This document shows positions 13,615 through 47,089 of a stretch of 57,193 bases of DNA, one piece after another; position 1 is the stretch's first letter; each line of letters begins with the position of its first letter. The position numbers and the translations under genes are program-made. A model generated the notes under the pieces. The model did no database searches and was not told where the DNA came from. It saw only the letters and a list, made by a program, of their open reading frames with translations. Origin of the DNA: a virus; the IMG/VR virus record IMGVR_UViG_3300032331_001351, positions 1 through 57,193 of that record; one strand, written 5' to 3'.

Positions 13615-15864
13615 TTACGCAATCGCTAAGAAAATGTACGTGCCGCCTGAAGCATTGATACCTGCCGCAGTGCTGACGATCTGGAACCCGGTGGTGATAG
13701 TATAAATACTATTAGCGTTAACTTCAGCAGCGTTACTGTTAAGTAACAATGATGGGTCGGTGCCGGACACCATACCACGAACCGTATCCCAGACATACCA
13801 GTCGCCTGTAGAGTCGGTACGCTTGATTAAGACGAACCGCGCTCCTGCCGCAAAGCCGCAAGCAATCGTTTGCGTTGCACCTGTGCCAGTATAACTGCCG
13901 ACTTTACTTATACCAGCGCAAGTAGCGAACAAATAATTAACTATGCTATCATTTACAGCGCCGAAGTTTGCACCGATTCTAAAAACAGAAGAGGTTGGTT
14001 GCGCGTTAATGTAATTGTCATACCCCCCGGTCGTTCCGGCACTAGTTGCAAAATATAATCCGGTATACGTTGAAGCTGTAAAGTTTGTTGCAATGTACCA
14101 ACCCTGCGCACTGGTTCTGTCTTTCAGTATCATCATTTCAGGAGCAACCCCTAAATTATGAGTAAGGTTTTGAGCGCTTCCTGTCGCTTTAAAAACAACC
14201 TCATCAAAAAATCCAGGGGCGCGTTGGAAGTTCCAAGTTGTAAACCCCCCAGAAGCGTTACCGTTGGCTCCGTAAGTAAAACCCGTGTTCCAATAATTGT
14301 ACGTGAATGGACCGTAATCTGCTGTAGATTCAGCACTTGATGATGGTGTAAACAAAAGCGTTTGATACCCGCTATTTGCGATTGGCACGCCTCTTAATCT
14401 GTCCGCTGCTGCGCCAACAATACCTTGCGAATTGTAAGACATCAAAGACATATCAACTCTAAACCCTGTTGTTTGAACAGTTCCTGCAGAAGCCGAAACA
14501 ACCTTTGCCGGAGCAAACACTTTAGTCCCGTCTGTGGGCACAGCCATTGGTCCACGGCGAACAGCTATGTAAATGAAGTTGTTTGATGTGGCGGTATTAT
14601 TAACAGTAAACCCTGTTGATGTAGGACCAACAGTTGAATTTTCTTCTGCATTTGTAGTGTTTGCTGTTAATTGCCTGCTATAAAGGACACCGTTATTCCA
14701 TGTAACCATCCCCCTCAGGTCATCTGTTACAATCCAAGAGTAACCGGTGGAGCTGCTATTTTTAATCATCACCCACTGCGGCTCATATCCAAGGCTCACC
14801 GTCGCATTACCACTTCCATCAGTAGTAAAAGACCCACAACTGATCACATTATCCGAACCGGTTAAGCCAAAGCCTCCTGCATTGCTAGCGAACAAGTACG
14901 CTACGTAATCAACACCCGCGTCAAGCGCACTGCCCGGAAAACTTATTGTGGTTGATGAGACATTTATCCAATTAGTTGAGGCAGTTGGCGCGGTTGTATC
15001 ATTTAATTGAAGGTATCTATTTATTGCGTAAAAGCCACCGCCGTCAAGACCAACATGATAAACTTTCCAGTCTTGAGAGCCGCTCGTGCTTTTTATCATT
15101 ACACACGCGGGAGTTGAACCTAGATTGTGAGAAATGTTTCCAGTATTAGGTGGCTTGCTTCCGTCGGTTGTAAAAGTCACAATATCAAAAAACTTAGCTT
15201 GTTCTCTGAATACCCATGAGGCATAGTTGTAAGGGCTTAGGTTTACGTTTGAGTTTGAACCAATTGTAAAACCATTTGAGTTGTAAGCGGTAACGCCTGT
15301 TGAAACTGTTGTTTGTGCGGCTGAACTAGAACTTTCTAAAACTTTGGTCACACCTCGTACTGTGTCATACCATTGAAACGGTCCACCAGCCGTGTTACGA
15401 ATTTTGCCAATAACTAACCCACCTTTGCCCGCCAAATCAATGCCGTTGGTGATGGTCTGTGTAGAGCTGTTACCTGTATAAAGCCAAGTCGAGAACACAT
15501 CTTCTACGTAACTAGGCAATACCGGCGTCACGCTGTTAGAAGCCGCGCTCTCAGGACCGTAGCCGTTCACGTTCTGAGCAGCTACGGTAAATGTGTAAGC
15601 CGTGCCGTTGGTCAAGCCTGAGACCGTAACCGGTGAGGTCAAACCCGTACCGGTAAAACCGCCGGGGGTTGAAGTCACGCGGTAGCCGGTAATTGCATTA
15701 GCAGGGAAGCCCGTGTCAGCAGGAGCAGTAAAAGCAACCGAAGCTGAAGCATTACCGGCAGTAGCCACAGGGCTCGTAGGAGCACCGGGCACAGATGGCC
15801 AAGTGTTACCCCCACGGGCTTGCATTTGTTGTCTTGAGGTCCACAGACCGTTAAAATTAGGCAT
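13615..15864 (-). CDS. Receptor-binding tail tip protein with fibronectin III domain (paralogue 2)
   Basis: I start this 749-residue protein at the ATG at 15864, which overlaps the previous stop (TAATG) and follows a GGGGA site. A longer in-frame start at 15912 would run into the upstream gene. Its MPNFNGLWTSRQQMQARGG start is like that of fibre tip proteins and is followed by a fibronectin III domain (about 30-115) and repeated beta modules with IDLAGKGGLVIGK, EQAKFFDIVTF and GYEPQWVMIKNSS strands. The C-terminus SGGTYIFLAIA nearly matches that of 11248-13605. Such duplication is typical of host-range variation. Confidence 0.8.
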   Translation of the reverse strand: MPNFNGLWTSRQQMQARGGNTWPSVPGAPTSPVATAGNASASVAFTAPADTGFPANAITGYRVTSTPGGFTGTGLTSPVTVSGLTNGTAYTFTVAAQNVNGYGPESAASNSVTPVLPSYVEDVFSTWLYTGNSSTQTITNGIDLAGKGGLVIGKIRNTAGGPFQWYDTVRGVTKVLESSSSAAQTTVSTGVTAYNSNGFTIGSNSNVNLSPYNYASWVFREQAKFFDIVTFTTDGSKPPNTGNISHNLGSTPACVMIKSTSGSQDWKVYHVGLDGGGFYAINRYLQLNDTTAPTASTNWINVSSTTISFPGSALDAGVDYVAYLFASNAGGFGLTGSDNVISCGSFTTDGSGNATVSLGYEPQWVMIKNSSSTGYSWIVTDDLRGMVTWNNGVLYSRQLTANTTNAEENSTVGPTSTGFTVNNTATSNNFIYIAVRRGPMAVPTDGTKVFAPAKVVSASAGTVQTTGFRVDMSLMSYNSQGIVGAAADRLRGVPIANSGYQTLLFTPSSSAESTADYGPFTYNYWNTGFTYGANGNASGGFTTWNFQRAPGFFDEVVFKATGSAQNLTHNLGVAPEMMILKDRTSAQGWYIATNFTASTYTGLYFATSAGTTGGYDNYINAQPTSSVFRIGANFGAVNDSIVNYLFATCAGISKVGSYTGTGATQTIACGFAAGARFVLIKRTDSTGDWYVWDTVRGMVSGTDPSLLLNSNAAEVNANSIYTITTGFQIVSTAAGINASGGTYIFLAIA

Positions 15865-16973
15865 TACAAATCCCCTGTATTCGTCGACGGGAAGGCTCTG
15901 CCAGATCCCCAAATAATGCGGACTGCGCCACCGCCGCCAGCGCCGTCAGAATAGCCACCACCGCCACCACCGCCGTAAACTCCACCGCCGCCCACTTTAG
16001 CAGGGCTTCCCGTACCGCCGCCTGAACCGCCACCACCGCCGTTAGTTCCGGCTCCTGGGTTACCGCCTACGCCGCCGGTTCCATTGGTTCCTTGTCCAAG
16101 AATACCAACTCCACCGCCACCTGAGTAGCCGCCATACCAAGCGCCCGCACCGCCACCGCCACCGCCTGAACCATCTGAACCAGAACCCTGCCCATCACCA
16201 CTAGCTCCAGCGCCGCCAGTACCGGCGTATCCGCCAGCCCCGCCACCGCCACCATAGTAAGCTCCACCACCGGTGCTACCGCCAACGCCGCCGTTACCGC
16301 CACCGTCACCAGTACCGCCAGATCCCCCAGCACCGCCTGTTTTTGGGAAAGTGCCGTTACCTTTTATACCGCCGTTGGCTACAACAATTGTAGAGCTAAA
16401 TGTTGAACTGGTTCCGTTAGAACCTGTACCGTCATAATTTTGAGCGCCGCCGGAACCGACGACAACTTGATATGAATTGCCAGGAGTAACAGATATGTTG
16501 TTTTTATATCTTACCTCACCGCCACCGCCACCACAAGCGTATCCACCACCACCCCCGCCTCCGACAGCAACAACGCAAATACTTGTAACCCCCGTTGGGC
16601 AAACCCAAGGGGTAGTTCCTACGGTTGTAAAGGCTTGCTGACCGATAGCTAAAGGCGTAACCACATTGCTTGATGCGCTGGCTGGGCTATTGCCGTAAGC
16701 GTTGTTAGCGAAAACTTGAAAAGAATAAGCTGTACCCGTAGTTAAACCCGCCACTGTTACCGGCGAAGACGCACCTGTGCCGATAATATTACCGGGGGAA
16801 GATACTACGGTGTAACTTGAAATAGCACCGCCGCCGATGTCAGTCGGGGCTGTAAACGTCACAGAAACAGACGTGCTGGAGGCTTGCGTAGCTGTACCGA
16901 TAGTAGGTGCGCTCGGAGCTTTCAACGGGAAATAGGAAGCGGTCAATATTGCCGCCTGATAGCGCATTGACAT
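15864..16973 (-). CDS. Glycine-rich tail tip protein with fibronectin III domain
   Basis: The protein has 369 residues. Residues about 18-110 form a fibronectin III domain close to those of the two downstream tip proteins (SSPVTVAGLTTGTAYSFQV). The rest is a glycine-rich domain that starts with a VCPTGVTSICVVAVGGGGGGG signature and carries long Gly/Ala/Asn/Thr runs. Such Gly-rich tips form polyglycine sandwiches that recognise receptors in other phages. It closes with WGSGRAFPSTNTGDL. The DNA is strongly G-biased on the coding strand because of Gly codons. Confidence 0.8.
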   Translation of the reverse strand: MSMRYQAAILTASYFPLKAPSAPTIGTATQASSTSVSVTFTAPTDIGGGAISSYTVVSSPGNIIGTGASSPVTVAGLTTGTAYSFQVFANNAYGNSPASASSNVVTPLAIGQQAFTTVGTTPWVCPTGVTSICVVAVGGGGGGGYACGGGGGEVRYKNNISVTPGNSYQVVVGSGGAQNYDGTGSNGTSSTFSSTIVVANGGIKGNGTFPKTGGAGGSGGTGDGGGNGGVGGSTGGGAYYGGGGGAGGYAGTGGAGASGDGQGSGSDGSGGGGGGAGAWYGGYSGGGGVGILGQGTNGTGGVGGNPGAGTNGGGGGSGGGTGSPAKVGGGGVYGGGGGGGYSDGAGGGGAVRIIWGSGRAFPSTNTGDL

Positions 16974-26762: not shown

Positions 26763-27176
26763 TCAGATGAATGCTCGAATTGCCAACGGGTCGCCAGTTA
26801 CCTGCCCGATGATATCCAAGTCATTGAAAATAACAAACATTGCAGATTCGTCTTTGCCCGGGAGCTTAACTTCCCAGCGATCACCACCATACTTAGCCAC
26901 GCGAACATGTTCACCAGCTTTGCACCAGTCACCTTCTGGCCAAGGTTTCATTGTGTCTCGGTTCTTAAACGCCAGCGGACCAAGGGCAATTACCTTGCCG
27001 ATTTGGGTGTTCCACTTTTCGGTTTCATTAGAACCATGGATGTCAATGATGATACCCCCAGCAGATTTCTTTTTAGGTGTACGGATCTGAATCAGAACAC
27101 GGCTCCCGAAAGGCTGAATTCCGGCATCTACTGCCGGGAAAGCCTCCGCTATTGCGTCCTCATAGGTCATTGTCAA
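26763..27176 (-). CDS. GroES-like co-chaperonin
   Basis: The protein has 137 residues. After 20 residues it follows the Cpn10 order: PFGSRVLIQIRTPKKKSAGGIII (start strand and mobile loop), a longer insert, IGKVIALGPLAFKNR, a GEHVRVAKYGGDRWEV strand, and FVIFNDLDIIGQV at the end. It would work as a GroES replacement with host GroEL, as T4 gp31 does, probably to fold the capsid protein (23628-24542). The position just upstream of the scaffold is consistent. It starts at 27176 or two codons later. Confidence 0.8.
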   Translation of the reverse strand: MTMTYEDAIAEAFPAVDAGIQPFGSRVLIQIRTPKKKSAGGIIIDIHGSNETEKWNTQIGKVIALGPLAFKNRDTMKPWPEGDWCKAGEHVRVAKYGGDRWEVKLPGKDESAMFVIFNDLDIIGQVTGDPLAIRAFI

Positions 27177-32588: not shown

Positions 32589-32749
32589 TTCTTCCTCGCC
32601 GCTCTCATGTTGTCTACCATGTTGGGGTAGGGTCTACCCGCGCTCTTAGCTGCCGCCTTGGCAGACGACTTAGCCGCTGGTGACAGCGCTTTGCTCTCGC
32701 CGAGGCTCTTGGGTCGGGCTTTGTCCCAGATAGGCTTCTTAGGCTGCAT
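32585..32749 (-). CDS. Small basic protein overlapping the terminase end, 54 residues
   Basis: The frame starts at the ATG at 32749, inside the last codons of the large terminase, and ends at 32585 with TGA, overlapping the next start (ATGA). The product is Lys/Ala/Ser-rich and very basic (KKPIWDKARPKSLGES, KSSAKAAAKSAGRPYP). The overlaps on both sides argue for translation coupling. Function unknown; a nucleic-acid or terminase partner is possible. Confidence 0.7.
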   Translation of the reverse strand: MQPKKPIWDKARPKSLGESKALSPAAKSSAKAAAKSAGRPYPNMVDNMRAARKK

Positions 32750-34310
32750 ACGGGTTTACCCTCGGTTTGTTAGAGATGCGAGGCTCGTCGATATCTTTTG
32801 CTTGAGGTAAATCAAACCATCTATCATTTTTGAGATAAATGATAGCTTGCGTAAACGTGTCAACATAATCATCATGCTCCGCTACTGGGAACTTGCCCAG
32901 TTGTTTGAGGAAAGCCGCTGCCCAACTCACCGGGTGTCCGGGGTTCTTTCCTGATTCCGGTACCCACAACAACCCCAACTCCAAGGTGGGCGCGGCTTGA
33001 TGTGCCCTTGATACCTTGTCAGCCTGACCTGGATTATAGCCCACGGCGGGCACTTTCGCCAAGCGCAAGTCTTGCAACAATGATTGACCGCTGGCTTTCG
33101 CTTCCACCAATATCCTGTCCGGGCGGCGGGCGCGTGAGTACGGAGAGTCCTTCGTCATGCCGCCGTATTCCGTCGTCCAGTCTTTCACGGCTCGTGCCCG
33201 CAAGTCTGGATAGCTCAGGTGTTCGTCCCACGCATCAATGAGCATTGCATTGCGCTCCCCCTTGTGCGTGAACATCGCCCAGACCGAGCAGGCAGTCGGG
33301 TCACCCGTTGTCTTCTCAGTGAACGCACAGTCGTAGGACTGCAGTATGTACTCAAACGGGGGCAGCGGTGACGTCGATGGCCAGAGTTTGAAGTGCGAGG
33401 TCTTGAGGATACCGCCCTCGCTCGGTGTGGGGTCTTGCTGTAGCTGACCGGCGGTTCCGTATGTACCCAACAGCTGCTTCAGCATCGTGATCTCGGCTGC
33501 ACCGAACCGCTCTGGGCAGATCAGCTCGCCTTTCGTCTTACGGGGGTCGTAGGGTCCGAGCACAGTCTTACGTGACTTACCGTCCCACTCTGCCGGAATG
33601 CAAATATGCTCCCAGCCCTTGATGTCCTCAAGGATGTGTCCGCTGATGTCACGCTCGTGTAGGCGCTGCATGACGGTCACCATCGCATCGGTCTTCGGGT
33701 TGTTGAGTCGCGTTGACCACACCATGTCAAACCACTCAAGGTCTGACTCACGCATGACCTCTGACTGCGCGGCTTGAGCGCCGTGCGGGTCGTCAAGTAT
33801 CAAGCGTGAGCCGCCTTCACCCGTGGCTGTACCGCCGACCGAGGTCGCGAGCCGGTAACCGGTCTTGTCGTTCTCAAACCGCTGCTTGGCGTTCTGGTCG
33901 CCGGCAAAGGCAAACATGTAGCCCCATCGTTCCTGATACCACGGTGACTGCAACAGTCGCCGGGTCTTCAAGTTGTCGCGTGTGCTCAGGTTGCCAGAGT
34001 ACGACGCGCACAGGAACTTCTGAGCAGGGTCAGTAATCCACTCCCACGCTGGCCACATGACGCTGACGATGGTCGACTTTGAATGCCGGGGTGGGATGTT
34101 AATGAGCAGCCGGTGTATCTCACCCGCGCTCACTGCCTCAAGATGTTCGCAGATCGCCTCAATGTGCCAACTCGCAATGAACGGTATACCCGGCTCAACC
34201 ACGTGCCAGCTCTGCTTGACGAACTCGTACAGCGAACCCGAAGCAGAGCGGCGCTCTTGCTCTCGCTTGACGAGGTCAAGCATGACAGCCGGGTTCATGG
34301 GCGCGTTCAC
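32739..34310 (-). CDS. terL: Terminase large subunit
   Basis: This 523-residue motor packages DNA into the head. The ATPase half has a Walker A-like loop INIPPRHSKST (residues 71-80; a deviant A motif with PRHSKS, known in several terminases), an adenine/coupling WPAWEW segment, and a Walker B RLILDDP near 168. The nuclease half has YDCAFTEKTTGDPTACSVW (RNase H fold strand with Asp), DRILVEAKASGQSL and HDDYVDTFTQAI (acidic metal ligands). Its stop overlaps the mini-gene 32585-32749 and its start overlaps the small subunit by 4 bases. Confidence 0.93.
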   Translation of the reverse strand: MNAPMNPAVMLDLVKREQERRSASGSLYEFVKQSWHVVEPGIPFIASWHIEAICEHLEAVSAGEIHRLLINIPPRHSKSTIVSVMWPAWEWITDPAQKFLCASYSGNLSTRDNLKTRRLLQSPWYQERWGYMFAFAGDQNAKQRFENDKTGYRLATSVGGTATGEGGSRLILDDPHGAQAAQSEVMRESDLEWFDMVWSTRLNNPKTDAMVTVMQRLHERDISGHILEDIKGWEHICIPAEWDGKSRKTVLGPYDPRKTKGELICPERFGAAEITMLKQLLGTYGTAGQLQQDPTPSEGGILKTSHFKLWPSTSPLPPFEYILQSYDCAFTEKTTGDPTACSVWAMFTHKGERNAMLIDAWDEHLSYPDLRARAVKDWTTEYGGMTKDSPYSRARRPDRILVEAKASGQSLLQDLRLAKVPAVGYNPGQADKVSRAHQAAPTLELGLLWVPESGKNPGHPVSWAAAFLKQLGKFPVAEHDDYVDTFTQAIIYLKNDRWFDLPQAKDIDEPRISNKPRVNPYAA

Positions 34311-34897
34311 TTCTGCCCAGCCTTGGCGAGCAAGCGGCTCATGTTCTCAAGCTCGTCATCGCTCAGGTTCTTCAGGTCGACCGCCGCGAGTGCGATTGGA
34401 CCGCCGTTTGAGCCGGTGTGCTCCTGGGTGATCTTGTCGCCGTAGACCTTGGGCAGCATCTTGCTGAGCATCCACTTGCGGGTGTCAATCTGAACCCGCT
34501 TGTGCGCAATGACGTCGCTGTTGAGCGGTAGCAGCATCTGCTTGAGCTTGGGCTTACCGTCCGGTTCAAACAGGGGGTCGCCGTCCGGGGACAGCTCCTG
34601 CACCGTCACCCACTCGTGCGTCTTGTCGCTCAGCGCGACGATCTCATCAGCGAGCAGCAGGTAGCCGATCTCGCGGGCGTGCGCGTAGTCCTTGCCTATC
34701 CCCTCCGGGTCTGTCTGAATCCAAGCCAGAAAACCCGCCACAGTTGGCATACCGGGGTCAGTCGAGCAGATGTTTTCAAGCGAGCGCCCCTTCTGCAGCT
34801 CCGCGCAGACATGAGCAGAGACCTGCTCCCGGTCGTACTTCCGGGCGGTAGGACGCGGTACACCTTTGCTGGTGCGAACTGGGGTTGTGTTATTCAT
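34307..34897 (-). CDS. terS: Terminase small subunit
   Basis: I take the start at the ATG at 34897 (196 residues, MNNTTPVRTSKGVPRPTARKYDREQVSAHV). A longer frame that would begin with TTG at 34939 runs through a promoter and is not credible. The N-terminal half (HVCAELQKGRSLENICSTDPGMPTVAGFLAWIQTD) is a helix-turn-helix of the small-terminase/Sf6-like kind; the rest is helical (RVQIDTRKWMLSKMLPKVYGDK, a typical small-terminase segment). It recognises the packaging site and activates TerL. Transcription from the promoter 34905-34933 would begin only a base or so before the ATG, so a leaderless message is possible. Confidence 0.88.
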   Translation of the reverse strand: MNNTTPVRTSKGVPRPTARKYDREQVSAHVCAELQKGRSLENICSTDPGMPTVAGFLAWIQTDPEGIGKDYAHAREIGYLLLADEIVALSDKTHEWVTVQELSPDGDPLFEPDGKPKLKQMLLPLNSDVIAHKRVQIDTRKWMLSKMLPKVYGDKITQEHTGSNGGPIALAAVDLKNLSDDELENMSRLLAKAGQK

Positions 34898-34904
34898 GAT
34901 TGAG

Positions 34905-34933
34905 ATTATACCTTCCTGAGTCAAAAAAGACAA
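34905..34933 (-). promoter_or_regulatory. Leftward phage promoter of the terminase genes
   Basis: On the minus strand TTGTCT (34933-34928), followed by TTTTTGACTCAGG, is 17 bp from TATAAT (34910-34905). Only 7 bases separate TATAAT from the ATG of terS (34897), so the start point would coincide with the start codon. An AGGAAGG lies between the boxes and would serve as a ribosome site only in longer transcripts. Confidence 0.75.
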
Positions 34934-34949
34934 GCACAAAAGTGATCGG

Positions 34950-35195
34950 TCGTTCGTCTATATAGAGGACACCCGAACGAACGATTACTTTCACCTACAA
35001 AACATACGTTCCGTAAAAACCACCGAACGATTAAACCGAACGATTACCCTCAAACCTTCTGATCGGCTACGGAGAGAGGACGAATGTCCCTCTCCTCCGG
35101 CGTTCCGAACGTAATTAGAAGAGGCAAAACAGCTAATCGTTCGTTCGGCGCTATCGTTCGAACGATTACCCGAACGATCAAACCGAACGATTACT
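34950..35195. repeat. Array of CCGAACGATTA repeats (iteron-like; candidate packaging or origin site)
   Basis: The core CGAACGATTA occurs exactly at 34978, 35024, 35037, 35159 and 35184. A near copy (CGAACGATCA) starts at 35171, an inverted copy (TAATCGTTCG) at 35134, a variant at 35106, and a partial inverted copy near 34950. CCGAACGAACGATTA (34973-34987) is repeated exactly inverted at 35134-35148. ATCGTTCGAACGAT (35153-35166) is a perfect palindrome. Two pairs are spaced by 13 bp. The array lies directly upstream of terS and its promoter, between terS and the mini-gene cluster. It could be a small-terminase binding (pac/cosB-like) site, a replication origin with iterons or an operator. Confidence 0.8.
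35071..35095. other. Stem-loop inside the repeat array
   Basis: GGAGAGAGGAC (35071-35081), loop GAAT, and GTCCCTCTCC (35086-35095) pair over 10 positions with one bulged A. The structure sits at the centre of the CGAACGATTA array between its left and right halves. It lacks a T-run on either strand, so it is not a plain terminator. Confidence 0.6.
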
Positions 35196-35957: not shown

Positions 35958-38096
35958 TTATATCCCAAATTTACCACGTTCAATGGCTTCAACAACTTCC
36001 TCATTGACACGTAGGTAGTGGTTGGCACGACCTTGCGGTTTCTCTAGCTCGACGCGCTCAAGCGAGCCGTCGTTCAGGAGACTGGTTACGGCGCGTTCCT
36101 TGCGCTCTTGACTGGCTTTGACGCCGCCTTGTGCCACGGGCAAGCGCTCATAGTAGGAGCGGGACTTGCCGGGGTCTTTGCGTACAAGGTCAAGCACCTC
36201 GTTACAGATGCGTGCCCATTGGTCTTGCTCTTTTTGTTCCTTGCGGTCTTCCTTCATCTGAGTGCGTTCGCCCTGCTTGAGTGGGCGGGCGACCGAGTGA
36301 CTGAACCAGATCTCTTTGTCGTAGCCCAGCACGTCTTTATGGCGCTCTTTGTTTGACACGAGGTCAAAGGTGAGTTCCGGAAAGGCGGTAGGGAACCTGA
36401 CCTTGACCGCTTTGAGCACGCGGGGGGCGTCCTCGTAATCGCCGTCTTTGAACACGGTATACACGCCTTGTGCGTCCCCGGTCCAAGCCGACGCACCCCT
36501 CGGGGACAGGAAGTCAGACTCGGTCATCCCAGCGATCTTTGACGTGTGGCTGACGATGACGATTGGGAACAGCGCAAAGGACTGTTTGATGTACGCCATT
36601 GCGCGCCCCACCTCCGCGTTGTCGTTCTCGTTTTCTAAATCAAACACCGCGTTAGCTGTATCAAAGATGACCAGCGGAAGCGCCGAGTGCATTGAGCCGT
36701 CGGCTTTCTCGTTGTCCACTGTCCATTCTTTGTACTCCTCAGCGACTTGAGACACGACCTTGGGGTCGAGCCGTTGAGCACTGATGACCCGTACCCGCTC
36801 GTCAAAGTCAGAGACCTTCATCCCGGTGTAGCCCCAGGAGTACAGCGAGTAAATGACCCGTTGAACCTGCACCACTGACTCAGTAATGATGATGACGTTA
36901 CGGCGCACTGCCGGTTTTAAAGCATAGTCATGCGGGCACAAGTGAGCGGAAGCTAACGCCATGGGCACGATGAGGGTCGTTTTACCGACTCCGGGAGCAC
37001 CAGCGACTACGTTCACCCCGGTTGACATGAAGTCATCGTACAAGTATTCAAAGACGTTGACCTGACCCGCGCCGCTGTCGGTTGCCCGCTTCAGGCTCAG
37101 CGGGTGCACTTCAGGTGTCCCGTCAGGTTTGTCAGCTTGTTGTTGATGCACATCATTTTTGTTCCCCACCCACCCGTTATCAATCGCCATGCGGAAAATT
37201 GAGCGGTAAGTGATTGAGTGCGGAGTGCTGATGTCTCGCTCCCATTTACGCCGTTGCGCCGAGGCATCAAATTTGTCGCTGGTTGCCGCCCATTCGGTCC
37301 AAATTTTGTAGCCGTTCTCGCCGTAAGGCTTGAGCACCATACCGACGTTGACCCACGTCGTATAGTCATCAGCGTCAACGTGTTTGAGCGCAGAGCGCAA
37401 ATCGTCAAACGTCTGAGCCGTGGCTACCGGAACCCCACCGCGCTCAGTCAGGCTATAGTTCACTGGAGGTCGTGCCTTACTCGCTATAAGCTGAGGTAAG
37501 GGGGAGGGCTTTGCCGGACGGGTTTGACTCAGCGGCGAGCGCCCTTGTTGCCATTTGTAATCTCCTGAGGGTCCGAGCGTAGGAGCGACGCAGATATAGC
37601 CGTGATGCTTGAGGTCAAGCCCCTTGCCCAGCGTGCCGGGGTAAGTCATGTCCTCATCAGCTGTAAACAACCTATGCTCCCCGCCGCCTTGAGTCACCGC
37701 CGTACAGTCGGAGTGCATGACGCCGTGTTCAGCTTCAAGTTGCGCTAGTGACTCAACACCGCCGTTCTGCGGGTCAATGTCCAGCGCCAGCAGTCCCGAG
37801 TCGGCTAGGGAAATACCTATACCCGCATCAGGATCCGTCGCCCACCAATCTCTGATGACTTGTTCATTTGTAGTTGAATCCTGATGCCCATGCGGAACCA
37901 GTTCAGACTGAGGATGCTTGCCCGCCTTGTGACCCTTTTCAGTATTAGGACGACCGCACCGGCACTGCCCGTTCTCGTCTACTGACCACACCGGCAACAC
38001 GTGCCAACCGAGCTTTGCGTAAGCCAGTGCGTAATCTAATGTCGCTGGTCCTTTAGTGTCTACCGCCCAAATGTGCTTGGGAGTCTTGCTGGTCAT
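35958..38096 (-). CDS. Bifunctional primase-polymerase with RepA/AAA_25 helicase domain
   Basis: The protein has 712 residues. Residues about 15-205 are a prim-pol (AEP) domain: GWHVLPVW start, GIGISLADSGLLALDID (acidic catalytic DxD), TQGGGEHRLF (His motif), GKGLDLKHHGYICVAP. Residues about 220-300 match a PriCT-like domain (FDDLRSALKHVDADDYTTWVNVGMVLK). Residues about 350-600 are a RecA-fold helicase with Walker A GAPGVGKTT and a LVIFDTANAVFD B motif. The C-terminal 90 residues look like a winged helix. It would make primers and unwind DNA at the fork. It overlaps the SF2 helicase by 4 bases. Confidence 0.88.
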   Translation of the reverse strand: MTSKTPKHIWAVDTKGPATLDYALAYAKLGWHVLPVWSVDENGQCRCGRPNTEKGHKAGKHPQSELVPHGHQDSTTNEQVIRDWWATDPDAGIGISLADSGLLALDIDPQNGGVESLAQLEAEHGVMHSDCTAVTQGGGEHRLFTADEDMTYPGTLGKGLDLKHHGYICVAPTLGPSGDYKWQQGRSPLSQTRPAKPSPLPQLIASKARPPVNYSLTERGGVPVATAQTFDDLRSALKHVDADDYTTWVNVGMVLKPYGENGYKIWTEWAATSDKFDASAQRRKWERDISTPHSITYRSIFRMAIDNGWVGNKNDVHQQQADKPDGTPEVHPLSLKRATDSGAGQVNVFEYLYDDFMSTGVNVVAGAPGVGKTTLIVPMALASAHLCPHDYALKPAVRRNVIIITESVVQVQRVIYSLYSWGYTGMKVSDFDERVRVISAQRLDPKVVSQVAEEYKEWTVDNEKADGSMHSALPLVIFDTANAVFDLENENDNAEVGRAMAYIKQSFALFPIVIVSHTSKIAGMTESDFLSPRGASAWTGDAQGVYTVFKDGDYEDAPRVLKAVKVRFPTAFPELTFDLVSNKERHKDVLGYDKEIWFSHSVARPLKQGERTQMKEDRKEQKEQDQWARICNEVLDLVRKDPGKSRSYYERLPVAQGGVKASQERKERAVTSLLNDGSLERVELEKPQGRANHYLRVNEEVVEAIERGKFGI

Positions 38097-39643
38097 TGTT
38101 CTGTGTCTCCGTAAAAGAATTCCTCAAGCACGTTCCAGTATTGACCAGACCGACGGACGTACACTTCATCAGGTACGCGAGCGCCTTTCATTTGCCACGT
38201 TAAAGTGTCTGCGGGGGATGGTAAGTTTACCGCAAGCTGCCGCGAACCAAAAAACTTTAAGGTCTTCCGGTCGGGAACTTCGGTGTTGATGAAATTGGTT
38301 CCGCGAATCTTGATGCCTTCCTCGCTCACGCAGTTGTAGTTGACAAGCAGTATCGGCACCTGGGGGTTGCGCTTAGTGCGGATAGCGACCGTATTAGTTG
38401 ATTCAACTTGCATTTTGAGAACCGAGCCGTCCTTGGCCATTTGCCCGGTCATGGGGTCAATGGGTAACAGTTTGTGAGCGCCAATTACTTTTTCCCGCTC
38501 ACGCAACGCTCGCTGCTTAGCGGGGATGGCTTCAACTTTTTCAAGAGTTTCTTCGGTGTAGAAGGTTTCATACATGTCAACCCCGCCCAGCCGTTGCAGG
38601 TTGCCAACGAAGTCCAGTATCAGACAGTTCTTTTTGTCATCAGCTAGGCGTGTGCCCCGACCCTGGATTTGAACCCACAGAGAGGAGGAGAGAGTTGGTC
38701 TCAGGCACACAATGCAGTCAAGCGCCGGGAAGTCAAAGCCGGTGGTAATCATATCCACAGAGCAAAGCACGCGGGACTCACCTGATTTGAATTTGCGTAA
38801 TGAATCGCTGCGCTCGTCGCGGGTGATTGCGCCAGCCATCACGTCCGTCACCCAACCCGTCTCAACCGCAATCACTTCCGCTGCACGTTCAGCTGCGTCA
38901 ATAGTTGGGCAGTACACCGCAATATGCTTACGGTTGCCGGCGAGTTGCGGTAGTGAACGCGCCACGGCACGCAGCCATACCACGTCCTCCCGCTTGTCAA
39001 CGTCAGTCATCACGTAGTCGCCATTGGCTTTACGCGCCCCGTCAAGGTCAAGCTGTACGGTGGTTTCAACTCCTACTAGCGGGCAGAGGTAGCCGTCGCC
39101 TACAGCTTGTGGTACGGTATAGCTATAGGCGAGTTGATCAAACCAGAACTGGTCACCTTCCCCGTGAATGACCCCGTTGTCCATTCGCCACGGCGTTGCG
39201 GTCATAGCCACGCGCCCCGCGTCACGGTAGCGGTGTAGCACCGACTCATAGAGCGAACGCTCGCCCTTGTTATGCGGTACGCGGTGAGCCTCGTCAATAA
39301 TGATGAGGTCAGGCGGTTGCATTTCAGCCTGAACGCCCAGTATGCTTTGAATGGTGCCAAAGGTGACCGGCTCAAAACGGTCTTTACGTTTGAGTCCTGC
39401 GCAAACTATTCCGGGGTTGACTCCACTATAGCGCTTATAGGCGGCGGCGTTTTGCTCAACCAGCTGTTGAACGTGGGTGAGCGCCCAAACGCGGCGGTTG
39501 GTTTTCTTATAGTGATCCGCTAGGGCGGCAATGATGAGCGATTTGCCCGTACCGGTAGCAAGTTGAAGCACCGGATGGTGTGCTCCCCCTAGGGACGCTA
39601 TAGCGGCGTCGTAGGCTTCTTGCTGGTAAAATCTGAGTTGCAT
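38093..39643 (-). CDS. Superfamily II DNA/RNA helicase (DEAH, SSL2/RadD-like)
   Basis: The protein has 516 residues. Motifs: Q-like RFYQQEAYDAA, Walker A ATGTGKS (residues 29-35), Ia LTHVQQLV, DEAH (117-120), III MTATPWR (about 155), V TTGFDFPALDCIVCL and VI QIQGRGTRLA. It is a translocase or helicase of the type that accompanies phage replication genes. It is the first gene of the leftward early operon and has a promoter at 39675-39703. The C-terminal 130 residues (after about 385) are not recognised. Confidence 0.88.
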   Translation of the reverse strand: MQLRFYQQEAYDAAIASLGGAHHPVLQLATGTGKSLIIAALADHYKKTNRRVWALTHVQQLVEQNAAAYKRYSGVNPGIVCAGLKRKDRFEPVTFGTIQSILGVQAEMQPPDLIIIDEAHRVPHNKGERSLYESVLHRYRDAGRVAMTATPWRMDNGVIHGEGDQFWFDQLAYSYTVPQAVGDGYLCPLVGVETTVQLDLDGARKANGDYVMTDVDKREDVVWLRAVARSLPQLAGNRKHIAVYCPTIDAAERAAEVIAVETGWVTDVMAGAITRDERSDSLRKFKSGESRVLCSVDMITTGFDFPALDCIVCLRPTLSSSLWVQIQGRGTRLADDKKNCLILDFVGNLQRLGGVDMYETFYTEETLEKVEAIPAKQRALREREKVIGAHKLLPIDPMTGQMAKDGSVLKMQVESTNTVAIRTKRNPQVPILLVNYNCVSEEGIKIRGTNFINTEVPDRKTLKFFGSRQLAVNLPSPADTLTWQMKGARVPDEVYVRRSGQYWNVLEEFFYGDTEQ

Positions 39644-42734: not shown

Positions 42735-43729
42735 AAGACTACCGCCTACCGGAAAACCGGGAAGAGTACTTCACGGCGCTCTATAAGATGAATCTTGATT
42801 ACGGGGTTATGCCCGGTCTGGTTTATTTGTACATGCCTGAACTCGCTCGCCGCTATGAGTGGGACGCTGAGCAGAAGCTCTGGTTCGCATTTTTGAACGG
42901 CATGACGCAGAACCCTATAACTTCGCTGCGCTTGTTCACCCGTCTACCTAGCGTTCCCCCTGCGGGCGCTCAGCTGACACATTTCAACGACTGGTTTAAC
43001 GATCAATGGGATACGCTCCAGTTTGACACCGACCGCCGGTATCAGAAACGCGACACCCTTGAAGCTATCAAGACCTACGCTAAGTTGGTTGAGGAGTTTG
43101 GCTCTCAAGAGGCGATGTTGACCGGCAAACCGTACTCAGAGCTTTGGGATCTCGTGCGCAACCGCTACTACAGCTTTGGTCGCCTGTCATCGTTCAGCTA
43201 CCTCGAGTATGTCTACTTGAACGGCTACGGCGCTGACTGTGATGACCTGCTGTTCAGCGATAAGTCGGGCAGCAAATCACACCGTAACGGGATGTTGTTT
43301 TTGATCGGTAAAGATGAGTTGGTTTGGGATAAGCGACTACCTAACGGGCAAGACGGTAACTACCCTAAATTCAAATTAATGTGCGGGTTTTTAGCTTCCG
43401 GTGCCGACACTTTAATTGATGCGTTCAAATTGAATTACCCTAGCGTGCCTAACGTGGGTCGGTTCACTATGGAGTCAAACCTTTGCACGTTCAAGAATCA
43501 TTTCTTCGGTCGGCGCTACCCCGGTGTTTACGCTGACATGGCTCAAGAAAGAATTGACTGGGCTGACGCACGTGACCAGAGCGCCTACACCGAGGTGTTC
43601 AAAGACATGCGGTCACAGCTGCTGCCTGACTGGTTACGGGCTGAATGCGGTGGTAGCTCAGCAATTAAAGTGAACGCGGCGGTTTTCCCTGAGACGGGTA
43701 TGCCTTTCAGAGCGGAGCATTTTCTATGA
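42731..43729 (+). CDS. Amino acid:DNA transferase / alpha-glutamyl-putrescinyl-thymine pyrophosphorylase-like protein
   Basis: The protein has 332 residues and is predicted helical. The N-terminal block YFTALYKMNLDYGVMPGLVYLYMPELARRY and the following EQKLWFAFLNGMTQNPITSLRLF resemble the DNA-hypermodification helical family (aGPT-Pplase/amino acid:DNA transferase) that replaces the pyrophosphate on 5-pyrophosphoryloxymethyl-dU in DNA with an amino acid. C-terminal blocks are GCDDLLFSDKSGSKSHRNGML (near 185) and SNLCTFKNHFFGRRYPGVY. Its operon partners are the kinase (43726-44304), helical-domain protein (44297-45217) and TS homologue. The assignment is from pattern memory, not a profile search. 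Confidence 0.7.
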   Translation: MKDYRLPENREEYFTALYKMNLDYGVMPGLVYLYMPELARRYEWDAEQKLWFAFLNGMTQNPITSLRLFTRLPSVPPAGAQLTHFNDWFNDQWDTLQFDTDRRYQKRDTLEAIKTYAKLVEEFGSQEAMLTGKPYSELWDLVRNRYYSFGRLSSFSYLEYVYLNGYGADCDDLLFSDKSGSKSHRNGMLFLIGKDELVWDKRLPNGQDGNYPKFKLMCGFLASGADTLIDAFKLNYPSVPNVGRFTMESNLCTFKNHFFGRRYPGVYADMAQERIDWADARDQSAYTEVFKDMRSQLLPDWLRAECGGSSAIKVNAAVFPETGMPFRAEHFL

Positions 43730-44304
43730 AACACGTCATCCTTAGAATCGCTGGCACGTTCGGCTCGGGCAAGACCACCGCTATGCGGGGATTCTTTGAT
43801 TACCCGACTGAGACTTTAATGAGCGGTAAAAAGATCGCCGGATACAAGGTTGACGCTAGCGCTGCCGGAATCACGCAGCCGATCTACGTGGTTGGTAAGT
43901 ATGACAACACGTGCGGTGGCACCGATGCCATCAAGACTCAGGCTGAGATTGCCGAGAAGATCCTGAAAGCGCACCCCCTAGGGCACGTGTTATATGAAGG
44001 CGCTTTGGTGTCTGCGAGCGGACTCGCCGGGCAGGTGACGCAAGCGATTCACCCTACCGGTTGTGACGTGTACGCATTCCTCGATACGCCGCAAGACCTC
44101 TGCGTTGAGCGGGTAAAGGGACGCCGCCTCGCCGCTGGTAATGAGAAAGAGTTCGACCCGAAGAACCTGATTGACAAGTTTGATTCAGTCGTCAACTGTT
44201 ATAAGAACCTGCGCAACGAGGGTACGTATGACGTCCGTAGGATTGACCACACCAACCCGCACCCACAATTAGTAGAAATTATAAAGGAGTACGAAAATGA
44301 TTGA
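43726..44304 (+). CDS. P-loop 5-hydroxymethyl-dU DNA kinase-like protein
   Basis: The protein has 192 residues. Walker A GTFGSGKTT (residues 10-18) is followed by a VGKYDNTCGGTDAIKTQ segment (near 60), typical of the nucleotide-kinase-like P-loop proteins linked to DNA base modification, then HVLYEGALVSAS, a possible Walker B/substrate region, and a LID-like CVERVKGRRLAAGN. In known pathways this enzyme phosphorylates 5-hydroxymethyl-dU in DNA to give the pyrophosphoryl leaving group. It overlaps its two neighbours by 4-8 bases. Confidence 0.75.
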   Translation: MKHVILRIAGTFGSGKTTAMRGFFDYPTETLMSGKKIAGYKVDASAAGITQPIYVVGKYDNTCGGTDAIKTQAEIAEKILKAHPLGHVLYEGALVSASGLAGQVTQAIHPTGCDVYAFLDTPQDLCVERVKGRRLAAGNEKEFDPKNLIDKFDSVVNCYKNLRNEGTYDVRRIDHTNPHPQLVEIIKEYEND

Positions 44305-45217
44305 CGAATGCCCATACCCGATGCCGACGGCTGAGACGGTATGCTCGATGGAGGGGTTGCTTTACTTCATTTGGGAACGCGAAGCTATTCGTCTTGCCCG
44401 TGAAAACGGTCACGCCGCGCCCTGGACTAAAGACCCGGTGCTCGCCAAGTACAAGTTTACTAACATTCACCGCAGCGATGATCGAGGCTCACAATGGATC
44501 ATTGATCACTTGATAGAACCAGCAGCGGCTAACGGCGATGAGCACTTGTGGTTTACGTTGTTGATCGCTCGCCTCATCAACTGGCCACCTACGCTACAGG
44601 TGTTGATTGACAAAAAAGTCATACCTTGCGCTCCTGAAAACTTTGATGCTGAGATGTTTGAGCACGCGCTTGAGCGCCTCAAAAAAGACGGTAAGAAGGT
44701 TTACTCGGGCGCGTATATGCTTTACCCTACAAAGATGGAGCCGGGGGGTAACAAGTCCAAGGCGGTCGCTAAGTACATCATCGGCAGCGCTATTGAGAAC
44801 GCTGACAACATCAGCGCCTCACTGTGGAACAACGAGCGGGGAATGTCTATTGAGCGGTTTGTAACTGAGCTGAGTAAGTGCTTCGGCATCAGTACTTTTA
44901 TTGCCGGGCAAGTAGCCGCAGACCTGACCTACACGGGTATGGACGTTGAAGATCTTTACACTTTTGCGCCTATTGGTCCCGGTAGCTCTCGGGGTTTGAA
45001 CTACTTACTAGGTAAACCGCCGTTCGCAACTTGGAAACAGAAAGAGTTCAACGCTGAGCTGAGTAACATCTTTGCCCACGCTGCTGACCGGCTTGACATC
45101 ATTGACATGACGCTGCATGATGTTCAGAACTGCATGTGCGAGTACAGCAAATACTGCCGCGCAGTCCTGGGCGAAGGTAAACCAAAAACAATTTATAAAA
45201 CAGAAACGGAGTTTTAA
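44297..45217 (+). CDS. 5hmdU DNA kinase-type helical-domain protein (DNA base hypermodification protein)
   Basis: The protein has 306 residues. FIWEREAIRLARENGHAAPWTKDPVLAKYKFTNIHRSDDRGSQWII (about 24-70) is the hallmark of the helical domain family associated with 5-hydroxymethyl-dU DNA kinases (eR..I.....G...PWT.DP.L..Y.F.N..R..DR...W). The C-terminal block HDVQNCMCEYSKYCRAVLGEG has a Cys pattern consistent with DNA contact in this family. In several phages this domain is fused to the kinase; here it is separate, next to the P-loop gene (43726-44304). It overlaps that gene by 8 bases and is 2 bases from the TS homologue. Confidence 0.75.
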   Translation: MIDECPYPMPTAETVCSMEGLLYFIWEREAIRLARENGHAAPWTKDPVLAKYKFTNIHRSDDRGSQWIIDHLIEPAAANGDEHLWFTLLIARLINWPPTLQVLIDKKVIPCAPENFDAEMFEHALERLKKDGKKVYSGAYMLYPTKMEPGGNKSKAVAKYIIGSAIENADNISASLWNNERGMSIERFVTELSKCFGISTFIAGQVAADLTYTGMDVEDLYTFAPIGPGSSRGLNYLLGKPPFATWKQKEFNAELSNIFAHAADRLDIIDMTLHDVQNCMCEYSKYCRAVLGEGKPKTIYKTETEF

Positions 45218-45218
45218 G

Positions 45219-46256
45219 ATGGAACTGTTAGTAAGAAATGTCAATCAAGCGTTTAGCGAAATCTTCTGGAAAATGAAGGTGCTCAATCTCCAGCCAGAAC
45301 AGACCCGTAACGGTCTCGCTATGGTTTACCCTGAGCCGGTGATCACAGTTTATAAATATCCGTACGAGCGCGTCCTGTTTGACAAAAAGCGCGACGCTAA
45401 CCCTATCTTTCATCTGATGGAGTCAATCTGGATGCTCGCAGGGCGCAATGACGTTGCGTTCCTACAGCAGTTCAACAAGCGCATGGTCGAGTTCAGCGAC
45501 GACGGTAAGACGTTTAACGCCGCCTATGGTCACCGCTGGCGTAAGCATTTCGGTCGTGACCAGCTTGATGAAGTTATCAGGTTGTTGCGCCGCGACCCTA
45601 CTACCCGTCAGGCTGTTGTTCAGATTTGGGACGATGCAGACTTGGCTAAGAAGACTAAAGACAAAGCATGCAATACGCAGATCATTTTTGATACGCGTAA
45701 CAACCGCCTGAACATGACGGTGTTCAACCGGTCAAATGATATCTGGTGGGGTGCTTACGGCGCTAACGCGGTGCACTTTAGTTTCTTGCAGGAGTTTGTC
45801 GCCTCCGCTATAGCTATGCACTTAGGCGTGTACCGTCAGGTCAGTAACAACTTACACCTTTACACAGAGCTTTATAACGCTAAAGATTACCTGTTTGCGC
45901 CGCCTGACGCAGACAGCTATGACCTTTACCGTAAAGGTGAAGTGCGCCCCCTGCCAATCATGTTGAACGGCGAGTACAAGTTGTTCCTAGCTGAATGTGA
46001 GATGTTCTGCCACGATCCTTTTAACGAGCGTATACACTACGCTAACCCGTTCTTTGAGCACGTGGCTCACCCAATGGCTATGGTCAGCAAGGTACGTAAT
46101 ATACACGCCGGTGACGGGCGTAGCTACGCGGCTAAAATCCGCGCTGCCGATTGGAAACGCGCCACTTTCGATTGGATTGACCGCCGCGAACACGCTCGTA
46201 AAATGAAAGAGGAAGATGACGAGATAAACGAGTTGCGTAAAGCTGTGAAAAAATAA
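45219..46256 (+). CDS. Thymidylate synthase homologue, probable dUMP hydroxymethylase
   Basis: The ATG at 45219 is chosen over longer in-frame starts because it follows ACGGAG (7 nt) and lies 2 bases behind the previous stop. The protein has 345 residues. HLMESIWMLAG gives the folate/active-site Glu68-Trp71 pair, KACNTQI holds the nucleophile Cys151, FNRSNDIWWG supplies the Arg171/Asp174 pair, and GANAVHFSFLQE places an Asn (183) near the position that selects dUMP in thymidylate synthase (Asp there marks dCMP enzymes). Alignment needs one residue insertion, so this is not decisive. In this cassette it would convert dUMP to 5-hydroxymethyl-dUMP. Plain TS remains possible. Confidence 0.78.
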   Translation: MELLVRNVNQAFSEIFWKMKVLNLQPEQTRNGLAMVYPEPVITVYKYPYERVLFDKKRDANPIFHLMESIWMLAGRNDVAFLQQFNKRMVEFSDDGKTFNAAYGHRWRKHFGRDQLDEVIRLLRRDPTTRQAVVQIWDDADLAKKTKDKACNTQIIFDTRNNRLNMTVFNRSNDIWWGAYGANAVHFSFLQEFVASAIAMHLGVYRQVSNNLHLYTELYNAKDYLFAPPDADSYDLYRKGEVRPLPIMLNGEYKLFLAECEMFCHDPFNERIHYANPFFEHVAHPMAMVSKVRNIHAGDGRSYAAKIRAADWKRATFDWIDRREHARKMKEEDDEINELRKAVKK

Positions 46257-46257
46257 C

Positions 46258-46294
46258 TTTACTTTTGTTAAAAATGTGAGCTATAATTTTTAAC
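46258..46294 (+). promoter_or_regulatory. Rightward promoter with -10-flanking dyad, ahead of the HD hydrolase
   Basis: TTTACT (46258-46263) is 18 bp from TATAAT (46282-46287). GTTAAAAAT (46267-46275) and ATTTTTAAC (46286-46294) form a perfect 9-bp inverted repeat around it, which could be an operator. The -35 departs from TTGCCT. The interval 46257-46319 is otherwise empty except for the leader with CTGGAGAAC before the GTG at 46320. Confidence 0.65.
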
Positions 46295-46319
46295 ATAACT
46301 GCTAACTGGAGAACTTTTT

Positions 46320-46808
46320 GTGAAACAAACCCTTGATTTTATTCTGGCTGGAAGCGAAGTAAAGCGGTATCATACCGTGACTACGCTCGTGTCTGAGACC
46401 GTCGGTCATCATTCACACGGCGTGGCTATGCTTTGCCTTCTTTTCGACCCTATGGCGAGCCGTCAGGTGCTGATGGCTGCGATGTTTCATGACCTCGCGG
46501 AGTTTCAAACCGGGGACATCCCCTCACCGGCAAAGCGTGAGTTTGGCATCGGCGGTAAGGTAGACGAATTGGAACTGCGTCTGATGACCGCTGCCGGAAT
46601 CATAATGCCTCACCTCACCCCCGAAGACAAGCGCACTCTCAAACTCTCTGACGTAGCTCAGGGGGCGTTGTTTTGCGCCCGAGAGCTTTCCCTCGGTAAT
46701 AAGCGTATGCGCCGCGTCTTCGATCGTTACATGAGCTACGCTGACGAGATGATGCTCGTCGGACGTGAGCGTGAAATTTTCAACATGATAAAGGACTACG
46801 CAGCATGA
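46320..46808 (+). CDS. HD-domain nucleotide phosphohydrolase (YfbR/DatZ-like)
   Basis: The protein starts with GTG and has 162 residues. HHSHGVAM (His31/His33), MFHDLAE (HD at 57-58, Glu61) and TGDIPSPAKREFG make the HD-type nucleotidase/triphosphohydrolase signature of YfbR and DatZ. The substrate could be dTMP, dTTP or another nucleotide. In a phage with modified thymine it could remove the ordinary T precursors. DatZ acts with PurZ in 2-aminoadenine phages, but there is no PurZ here. It has its own promoter and GGAG site. Confidence 0.78.
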   Translation: MKQTLDFILAGSEVKRYHTVTTLVSETVGHHSHGVAMLCLLFDPMASRQVLMAAMFHDLAEFQTGDIPSPAKREFGIGGKVDELELRLMTAAGIIMPHLTPEDKRTLKLSDVAQGALFCARELSLGNKRMRRVFDRYMSYADEMMLVGREREIFNMIKDYAA

Positions 46809-47089
46809 GCGCGGCTAATCAAAAACAAATCGGCGGTAATCACTACAAGCACGGCGGTGAGGAACACTGGGACCGCGTGCATCGTTTGAATTTGAATTAC
46901 TTTCAAGCAGCCACCACTAAGTATGTTGAGCGTTGCTACCTGAAAGGTAATCCGATTCAAGACTTACAGAAAGCCGTTCATTTCCTTGAGAAGTTGATCG
47001 AGATCGAGCAGCGTAAAGCTGATGAAAAATGCGTCGCGGTTCTAAGTGATGGCAGCGAGCCGACCTCCGGTTATGTTAACCAAGACTGA
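46805..47089 (+). CDS. DUF3310 protein (T7 gp1.7 nucleotide kinase-like)
   Basis: The protein has 94 residues. KQIGGNHYKHGGEEHWDRVHRLNLNYFQAATTKYVERCYLKGNPIQDLQKAVHFLEKLIEIE is the full DUF3310 pattern (GGxHY...WD...YF....KY..R...K.....DL.KA..YL..LIE). In T7 the gp1.7 protein with this domain is a nucleotide kinase for dTMP/dGMP. It could phosphorylate the hydroxymethylated nucleotide here, which is inference. It overlaps the HD gene by 4 bases and the polymerase by 44. Confidence 0.8.
   Translation: MSAANQKQIGGNHYKHGGEEHWDRVHRLNLNYFQAATTKYVERCYLKGNPIQDLQKAVHFLEKLIEIEQRKADEKCVAVLSDGSEPTSGYVNQD

Follow-up and report, generated by a model that had tools for sequence, protein, structure and literature searches.

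A non-coding gap directly upstream of the small terminase gene terS of an uncultured tailed phage holds an array of short repeats, and the question arises whether the packaging machinery or the replication machinery makes use of them. A previous sequence-only reading had offered both, a terminase binding site of the cosB/pac type and an iteron origin. The window analyzed here is the whole stretch of DNA, a viral record of 57,193 bases, in which the array lies between terS and the small ORFs behind a Prim-Pol gene (Table 1). The record is classed as linear; because its first 123 bp recur perfectly as a direct repeat at the other end (1-123 = 57071-57193), we regard it as a circular assembly with a length of 57,070 bp. 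The contig ends fall among the tail genes and are remote from the array.

Table 1. Features of the window that bear on the repeat array (positions refer to the 57,193-base stretch).
Feature	Position	Strand	Basis
Entire iteron array with central hairpin, candidate replication origin	34943..35193		Repeat counts; kept in relatives
Iteron cluster A, terS-distal	35134..35193		CGAACGAT at 35136(-), 35153(-), 35159(+), 35171(+), 35184(+); palindrome ATCGTTCGAACGAT 35153-35166
Central bulged hairpin	35053..35112	-	Covariance model, 65.9 bits, E 7e-16
Iteron cluster B, proximal	35023..35046	+	Two CCGAACGATTA copies, 13 bp apart
terS-proximal inverted iteron pair	34943..34987		Encloses short palindrome TCTATATAGA (34957-34966)
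terS, Sf6-type small terminase	34307..34897	-	PF20901, phrog_1482
terL, large terminase	32739..34310	-	phrog_38
Prim-Pol, proposed initiator	35958..38096	-	Prim-Pol PF09250 + PriCT_2 PF08707 + AAA_25 helicase domain PF13481 + C-terminal winged helix; co-segregation with array
DNA helicase, same replication module as Prim-Pol	38093..39643	-	phrog_16
Sigma-70-like promoter of terS, TTGTCT-17-TATAAT	34905..34933	-	10/12 consensus matches

Elsewhere in the window, the region 43726-47089 encodes a thymidylate synthase-like protein (phrog_5131, E 7e-106), nucleotide phosphatases/kinases and a protein resembling a 5-hmdU DNA kinase (PF18748, E 4e-5, below the cut-off); from this gene set a hypermodified thymine in the phage DNA is possible. 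A GroES/Cpn10-like gene (26763-27176, minus strand, PF00166, E 5e-9) adjoins the portal gene, and low-complexity repeats (CCACCGCC/CCGCCACC) occur within an ORF at about 15850-16350.

To describe the array we counted the exact core CGAACGAT. It occurs eight times in the 57,193 bases, six times forward (34978, 35024, 35037, 35159, 35171, 35184) and twice in reverse (35136, 35153), with every copy inside 34978-35191. Shuffled windows contained 1.5 copies on average, and none of 100 shuffles had eight. The 10-mer CGAACGATTA is present six times, each time within the array. Taken together with two degenerate copies (34943-34952, minus strand; about 35105-35114, plus strand) this agrees with the "about ten" cores in both orientations of the sequence-only reading. 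The architecture it had described was recovered as well: a perfect 15-bp inverted pair (CCGAACGAACGATTA at 34973-34987 and 35134-35148), the 14-bp palindrome of cluster A, a 13-bp spacing in two pairs (35024/35037 and 35171/35184), a bulged hairpin at the center and a location immediately upstream of terS. The iterons thus form two sets, 35134-35193 and 34943-35046, which flank the hairpin. Neither a DnaA box nor a strongly AT-rich stretch was found in the array of the window, the hairpin interval containing only about 40-55% A+T.

Relatives were taken from IMG/VR by means of the large terminase TerL. The same core stands near terS in 16 TerL relatives, mostly with near-identical spacing, and a pattern search independent of TerL yielded the same arrays in front of TerS genes of phages whose TerL aligns only partially, with 40% identity. 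The sequence-only reading had suggested looking for the array upstream of terS in related phages, and had counted a lack of conserved repeats against its own proposal; array and hairpin are in fact widely kept. Read in terS orientation the anatomy is constant and consists of cluster A (mostly with its palindrome), the bulged hairpin, cluster B, the inverted pair around a short palindrome (CTCTCGAAGAG in relatives where the window has TCTATATAGA) and the promoter. The hairpin is located 88-772 bp from terS, always upstream and co-oriented (32 out of 32 loci). Its distance to the Prim-Pol gene varies from 57 to 8406 bp: it lies 57-250 bp behind this gene in nine loci, and in the window 0.85 kb with small ORFs separate the array from it. 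In 29 out of 32 loci the hairpin is 3' of Prim-Pol and co-oriented, and in three Prim-Pol is inverted and 5-8 kb away. The nearest isolates, the Roseobacter phages CRP-901/902 (TerL 44-45%), have no array upstream of terS.

Six loci on bacterial contigs with at least four cores, obtained in a paired-core scan (L220, L249, L253, L264, L302, L316), gave no TerS, TerL or Prim-Pol match and were taken as chance or unrelated repeats. Contig IMGVR_UViG_3300047121_000347 (101,830 bp) carries two Prim-Pol regions and two arrays (L370, L378); it is a fusion of two phages or an assembly chimera. An ORF that by eye reads like a GIY-YIG homing endonuclease is situated between array and terS in L396.

For the hairpin a covariance model (R1) was built from ten seeds. 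It matches nearly all array-bearing TerL-related loci searched, with E-values down to 7e-21, and has zero matches in 23 whole array-less records. The score is only 21 bits in L105, L135, L185 and L195; no match was obtained in L031, the contig of which begins within the array, nor a significant one in L356 and L386, where the arrays have a changed core. Among 35 distinct sequences 17 of the 22 pairs exhibit compensatory change, with an alignment that was fitted to the model and thereby leans towards structure. The same caveat of a model-fitted alignment applies to the covariation score of 0.372, compared to 0.143 ± 0.011 for shuffled and 0.08-0.15 for slid controls. Members of the window's clade keep an intact inner stem, but have weakened or partly lost middle and outer stems. 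Folding z-scores of single copies are -1.95 for the window, -3.8 for L017 and -6.0 for L361. The array possesses one strongly conserved hairpin in a single orientation, and a second, short palindrome that is variable. An excess of G-T pairs over A-C pairs in the hairpin alignment (24 versus 11 cells) hints weakly at folding of the terS-sense strand.

Which gene does the array follow? Among records of at least 20 kb, Prim-Pol is encoded in 8 out of 8 that bear the array and in 0 out of 15 array-less TerL relatives (Fisher p 2e-6, with relatedness not corrected for); array-bearing fragments below 20 kb often stop before the Prim-Pol gene. An independent search that started from Prim-Pol led to arrays in front of terS that are built alike, some of them with other cores, and in L081/L082, with 55-59% Prim-Pol, the array is degenerate and the hairpin present.

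The terminase behaves differently. TerS is modular, its C-terminus (residues 150-195) being well conserved and its N-terminal DNA-binding part being swapped. In L004 and L018 the TerS DNA-binding domain is 71-75% identical to that of the window and TerL 96-97%, yet the core is absent and unrelated AGCCCCCT iterons are found; in L067, L069, L075 and L128 the TerS N-terminus is only 31-34% identical, yet the window's exact core is present. Because of this dissociation in both directions TerS is rejected as the source of the core specificity. Two further contigs with 81% identical TerS and no array seen (L019/L020) are not decisive, as they hold 1.7-2.9 kb upstream of terL. Mosaic TerS proteins with several exchangeable N-terminal DNA-binding parts were noted in L067, L069, L128, L402 and L022-L027. 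Contig ends were also considered as indicators of packaged genome ends; many of the contig ends lie near terS, mostly in array-less relatives with mosaic TerS, and were attributed to assembly breaks.

What takes the place of the array in the array-less TerL relatives gives a further hint. Their primase-helicases are of other kinds, Toprim + AAA_25 (L018, L034) or PriCT_2 + DUF5906 (L026, L073), and directly behind the replacing primase we found unrelated iterons with a hairpin, namely AGCCCCCT in L018, ACGCCCTA in L034 and AGGTTCGA/CCTCGAACC in L026. An SprT-like gene precedes the GGTGAGGA repeats of L048. We scanned 7,800 windows of relatives without the array; among the best three windows listed per locus, each of the 11 with at least six copies of one 8-mer was at this location (L026, L068 and L048). 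The hairpins of the replacing modules mostly beat shuffled sequences (z -4.7 to -7.4; only -1.7 in L018), and a perfect DnaA box (TTATCCACA) lies beside the iterons in L004 and L018. Since a gene separates array and terS in the replacing modules, the common factor is closeness to the primase and not to terS.

These observations argue that the array serves the Prim-Pol replication module in cis and is probably an iteron-type replication origin. In relatives it tracks the primase-helicase gene and not the packaging genes, and for this reason the most likely role of the array is that of a start of genome copying. Of the two options of the sequence-only reading, the iteron origin is favored by co-segregation with Prim-Pol and by module exchange.

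The proposed initiator has a Prim-Pol domain (PF09250, E 6.5e-28). Its N-terminus weakly matches prim-pol structures of pRN1 ORF904 (best PDB folds 1rni/3m1m, E about 1e-3), and its middle part shows a weak fold match to RSF1010 RepA (1g8y). An AlphaFold2 model computed with 30 relatives reached a mean pLDDT of 72, with a poor ATPase part; the C-terminal domain modeled alone reached 89 and has a winged-helix topology. As no fold match fell below E 0.001, the fold was assigned from the topology and from the agreement of many matches. Searching PDB sequences with a Prim-Pol profile gave no match. An SF3 helicase domain was not found in the initiator, Pfam giving AAA_25 (PF13481), and there is no full-length homologue in cultured phages among 50,697 phage records.

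The core itself is not uniform across the Prim-Pol family (GAACGTT, TAATCGTGT, TAACCGTGTG, TAATCAAGTG, AACGGGT and others), and hairpin and layout are kept. In L344, L356, L358, L362 and L402 a changed core occurs together with a small gene, located between array and terS, for a stand-alone copy of the winged helix, the fused domain being 66-83% identical to the window's. In L361, L386, L389, L395 and L396 the changed core goes along with a diverged fused winged helix (41-62%), and a stand-alone gene was not seen. Among loci with the standard core a stand-alone winged-helix gene occurs in L367 only; in L362 and L367 these genes are doubled. The core switches, which are few and come from related, not independent, sequences, point to the winged-helix family as the potential reader of the iterons. 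The fused winged helix alone hardly explains the specificity, because L357 and L358 have different cores with 91% identical Prim-Pol. Residues of the recognition helix were tried as a simple predictor of the core and discarded: the helix barely differs between L357 and L358 and the core does, and L353 and L358 share KGSQERKER. A wider reading would be that of a new class of origins in a large lineage of uncultured phages, where the winged helix is fused to a prim-pol/RepA-type helicase or separate, and where an acquired stand-alone copy rewrites the iteron specificity with prim-pol and covarying hairpin nearly unchanged. We put this forward tentatively, and as a whole it is rather doubtful.

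How might such a site work? The C-terminal winged helix of the initiator, or the stand-alone copy in some relatives, may bind the iterons, after which the helicase domain would be loaded and open the DNA. The exposed hairpin could then offer a start site to the prim-pol, in the way of the RSF1010 ssi hairpins and, as has been proposed, of the pRN1 stem-loop. The binder of the iterons could also be another protein of the module, e.g. the helicase, as those genes travel with Prim-Pol. Several observations do not fit the origin smoothly, among them the missing DnaA box and strongly AT-rich stretch in the window's array and the partial loss of the outer hairpin stem in its clade. The array keeps to terS rather than to the initiator gene, given the much narrower range of distances to terS reported above. 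In addition, a turning point of the GC skew at the array, which the sequence-only reading had proposed as a check, was not seen: the cumulative skew turns at the divergent gene boundary at 41.3 kb instead of 35 kb, and skews by codon position are mixed.

The strict anchoring upstream of terS suggests looking at transcription. The -35/-10 pair of the terS promoter is a good one and begins some 10 bp beyond the last iteron; because its -10 box is placed 7 bases ahead of the ATG, transcripts that it drives (window 34895-34911) would be leaderless or nearly so, and TATAAT precedes terS in relatives too. The array could accordingly be imagined as an operator or enhancer of this late promoter, with a winged-helix regulator of the replication module binding the iterons and switching the late operon. 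Its invariable position upstream of and co-oriented with terS (32/32), at the boundary of early and late genes, is in line with such a function, as are the stand-alone winged-helix genes that adjoin the array in some relatives. However, a gene intervenes between array and terS in L344, L358, L362, L367 and L402 as well as in the replacing modules, where the analogous array is behind the primase, and an operator does not need a covarying hairpin of 22 pairs. We consider this explanation unlikely; it may coexist with an origin. Since the site is immediately upstream of the terS promoter, binding of the initiator may also affect late transcription, and such a second role of the array is quite possible. 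That the hairpin acts as RNA, forming a leader structure or an attenuator when transcription proceeds from the replication genes into terS, would account for covariation on one strand, for more G-T than A-C cells and for the constant co-orientation with terS. Yet the hairpin sits upstream of the terS promoter and lacks a U-tract terminator, and Rfam returned nothing above the gathering threshold (three sub-threshold matches were due to chance). The flanking iterons would be left unexplained, and tolerance of G-T suits single-stranded DNA equally, which makes an RNA element extremely improbable.

The cosB/pac-like option of the sequence-only reading, in which TerS would bind the CGAACGATTA repeats and start packaging, fared hardly better. 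Known cos layouts likewise have inverted repeats near terS, the position and orientation beside terS are the same in all relatives, and in L398/L402 the TerS N-terminus and the array have changed jointly. Against this stand the double dissociation, with a similar TerS DNA-binding domain lacking the array and a dissimilar one next to an identical core, the tracking of Prim-Pol by the array, and the assembly of the window as a circle with its ends elsewhere, so that a fixed end at the array is not seen. A terminase recognition site is very unlikely on these grounds.

Returning to the replication origin, the array resembles the iteron origins of PICI and P4 combined with a hairpin of the pRN1/RSF1010 type. 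In the pri-rep-ori of PICI/SaPI the origin lies directly 3' of the primase/initiator gene, has two iteron sets and may be followed by terS; the iterons differ between elements and flank an AT-rich region (PMC6092414). The window shares the two sets, the position 3' of the putative initiator gene and terS beyond, and in its relatives, too, the iterons vary. It differs in having a G+C-rich covarying hairpin instead of an AT-rich region between the iterons, in being an apparently complete phage and in the archaeo-eukaryotic prim-pol of its initiator. The stem-loop of pRN1 is located behind the rep gene, is conserved in structure and not in sequence, and is required for replication (PMC4234260). 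ORF904 of pRN1 likewise unites prim-pol, helicase and C-terminal winged helix with a stem-loop behind its gene (PMC4234260); its helicase is of the SF3 type and iterons are missing, whereas the window has an AAA_25/RepA-type helicase domain and a hairpin of about 60 nt with a small loop. The oriV of RSF1010 (RepA/RepB'/RepC) contains iterons and the hairpins ssiA/ssiB, which are recognized by an AEP primase (PMC4234260, PMC4434180). Iterons with a hairpin, an AEP-type primase, a RepA-type hexameric helicase and, as predicted for the window, a separate iteron-binding function are common to both systems. In RSF1010 the functions are distributed over three separate proteins and the two ssi hairpins lie on opposite strands, in contrast to the fused domains and the one strongly conserved hairpin of the window. 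The P4 alpha protein, as summarized in PMC4234260, is a multifunctional primase-helicase whose winged helix binds origin repeats. This corresponds to the domains of the window's initiator and the repeats at its candidate origin, where binding is predicted; P4 alpha has a Toprim primase and the summary describes no hairpin, as opposed to prim-pol and hairpin here. CosB/pac sites share inverted repeats beside terS with the array, which does not follow TerS or TerL. The window unites traits of PICI, pRN1 and RSF1010; without an AT-rich melting zone, an SF3 domain and a second conserved ssi hairpin it is a formal member of none of the three.

A practical consequence is that repeats beside terS should not be named cos or pac from their position alone. 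Iterons and a structured start site are usually treated as alternatives; in the candidate site they occur together and are accompanied by a fused initiator that matches them, and the specificity between initiator and origin can be studied by means of natural swaps of the core. For a widespread phage lineage without a close cultured member (best TerL 45% identity) the array represents a defined candidate origin.
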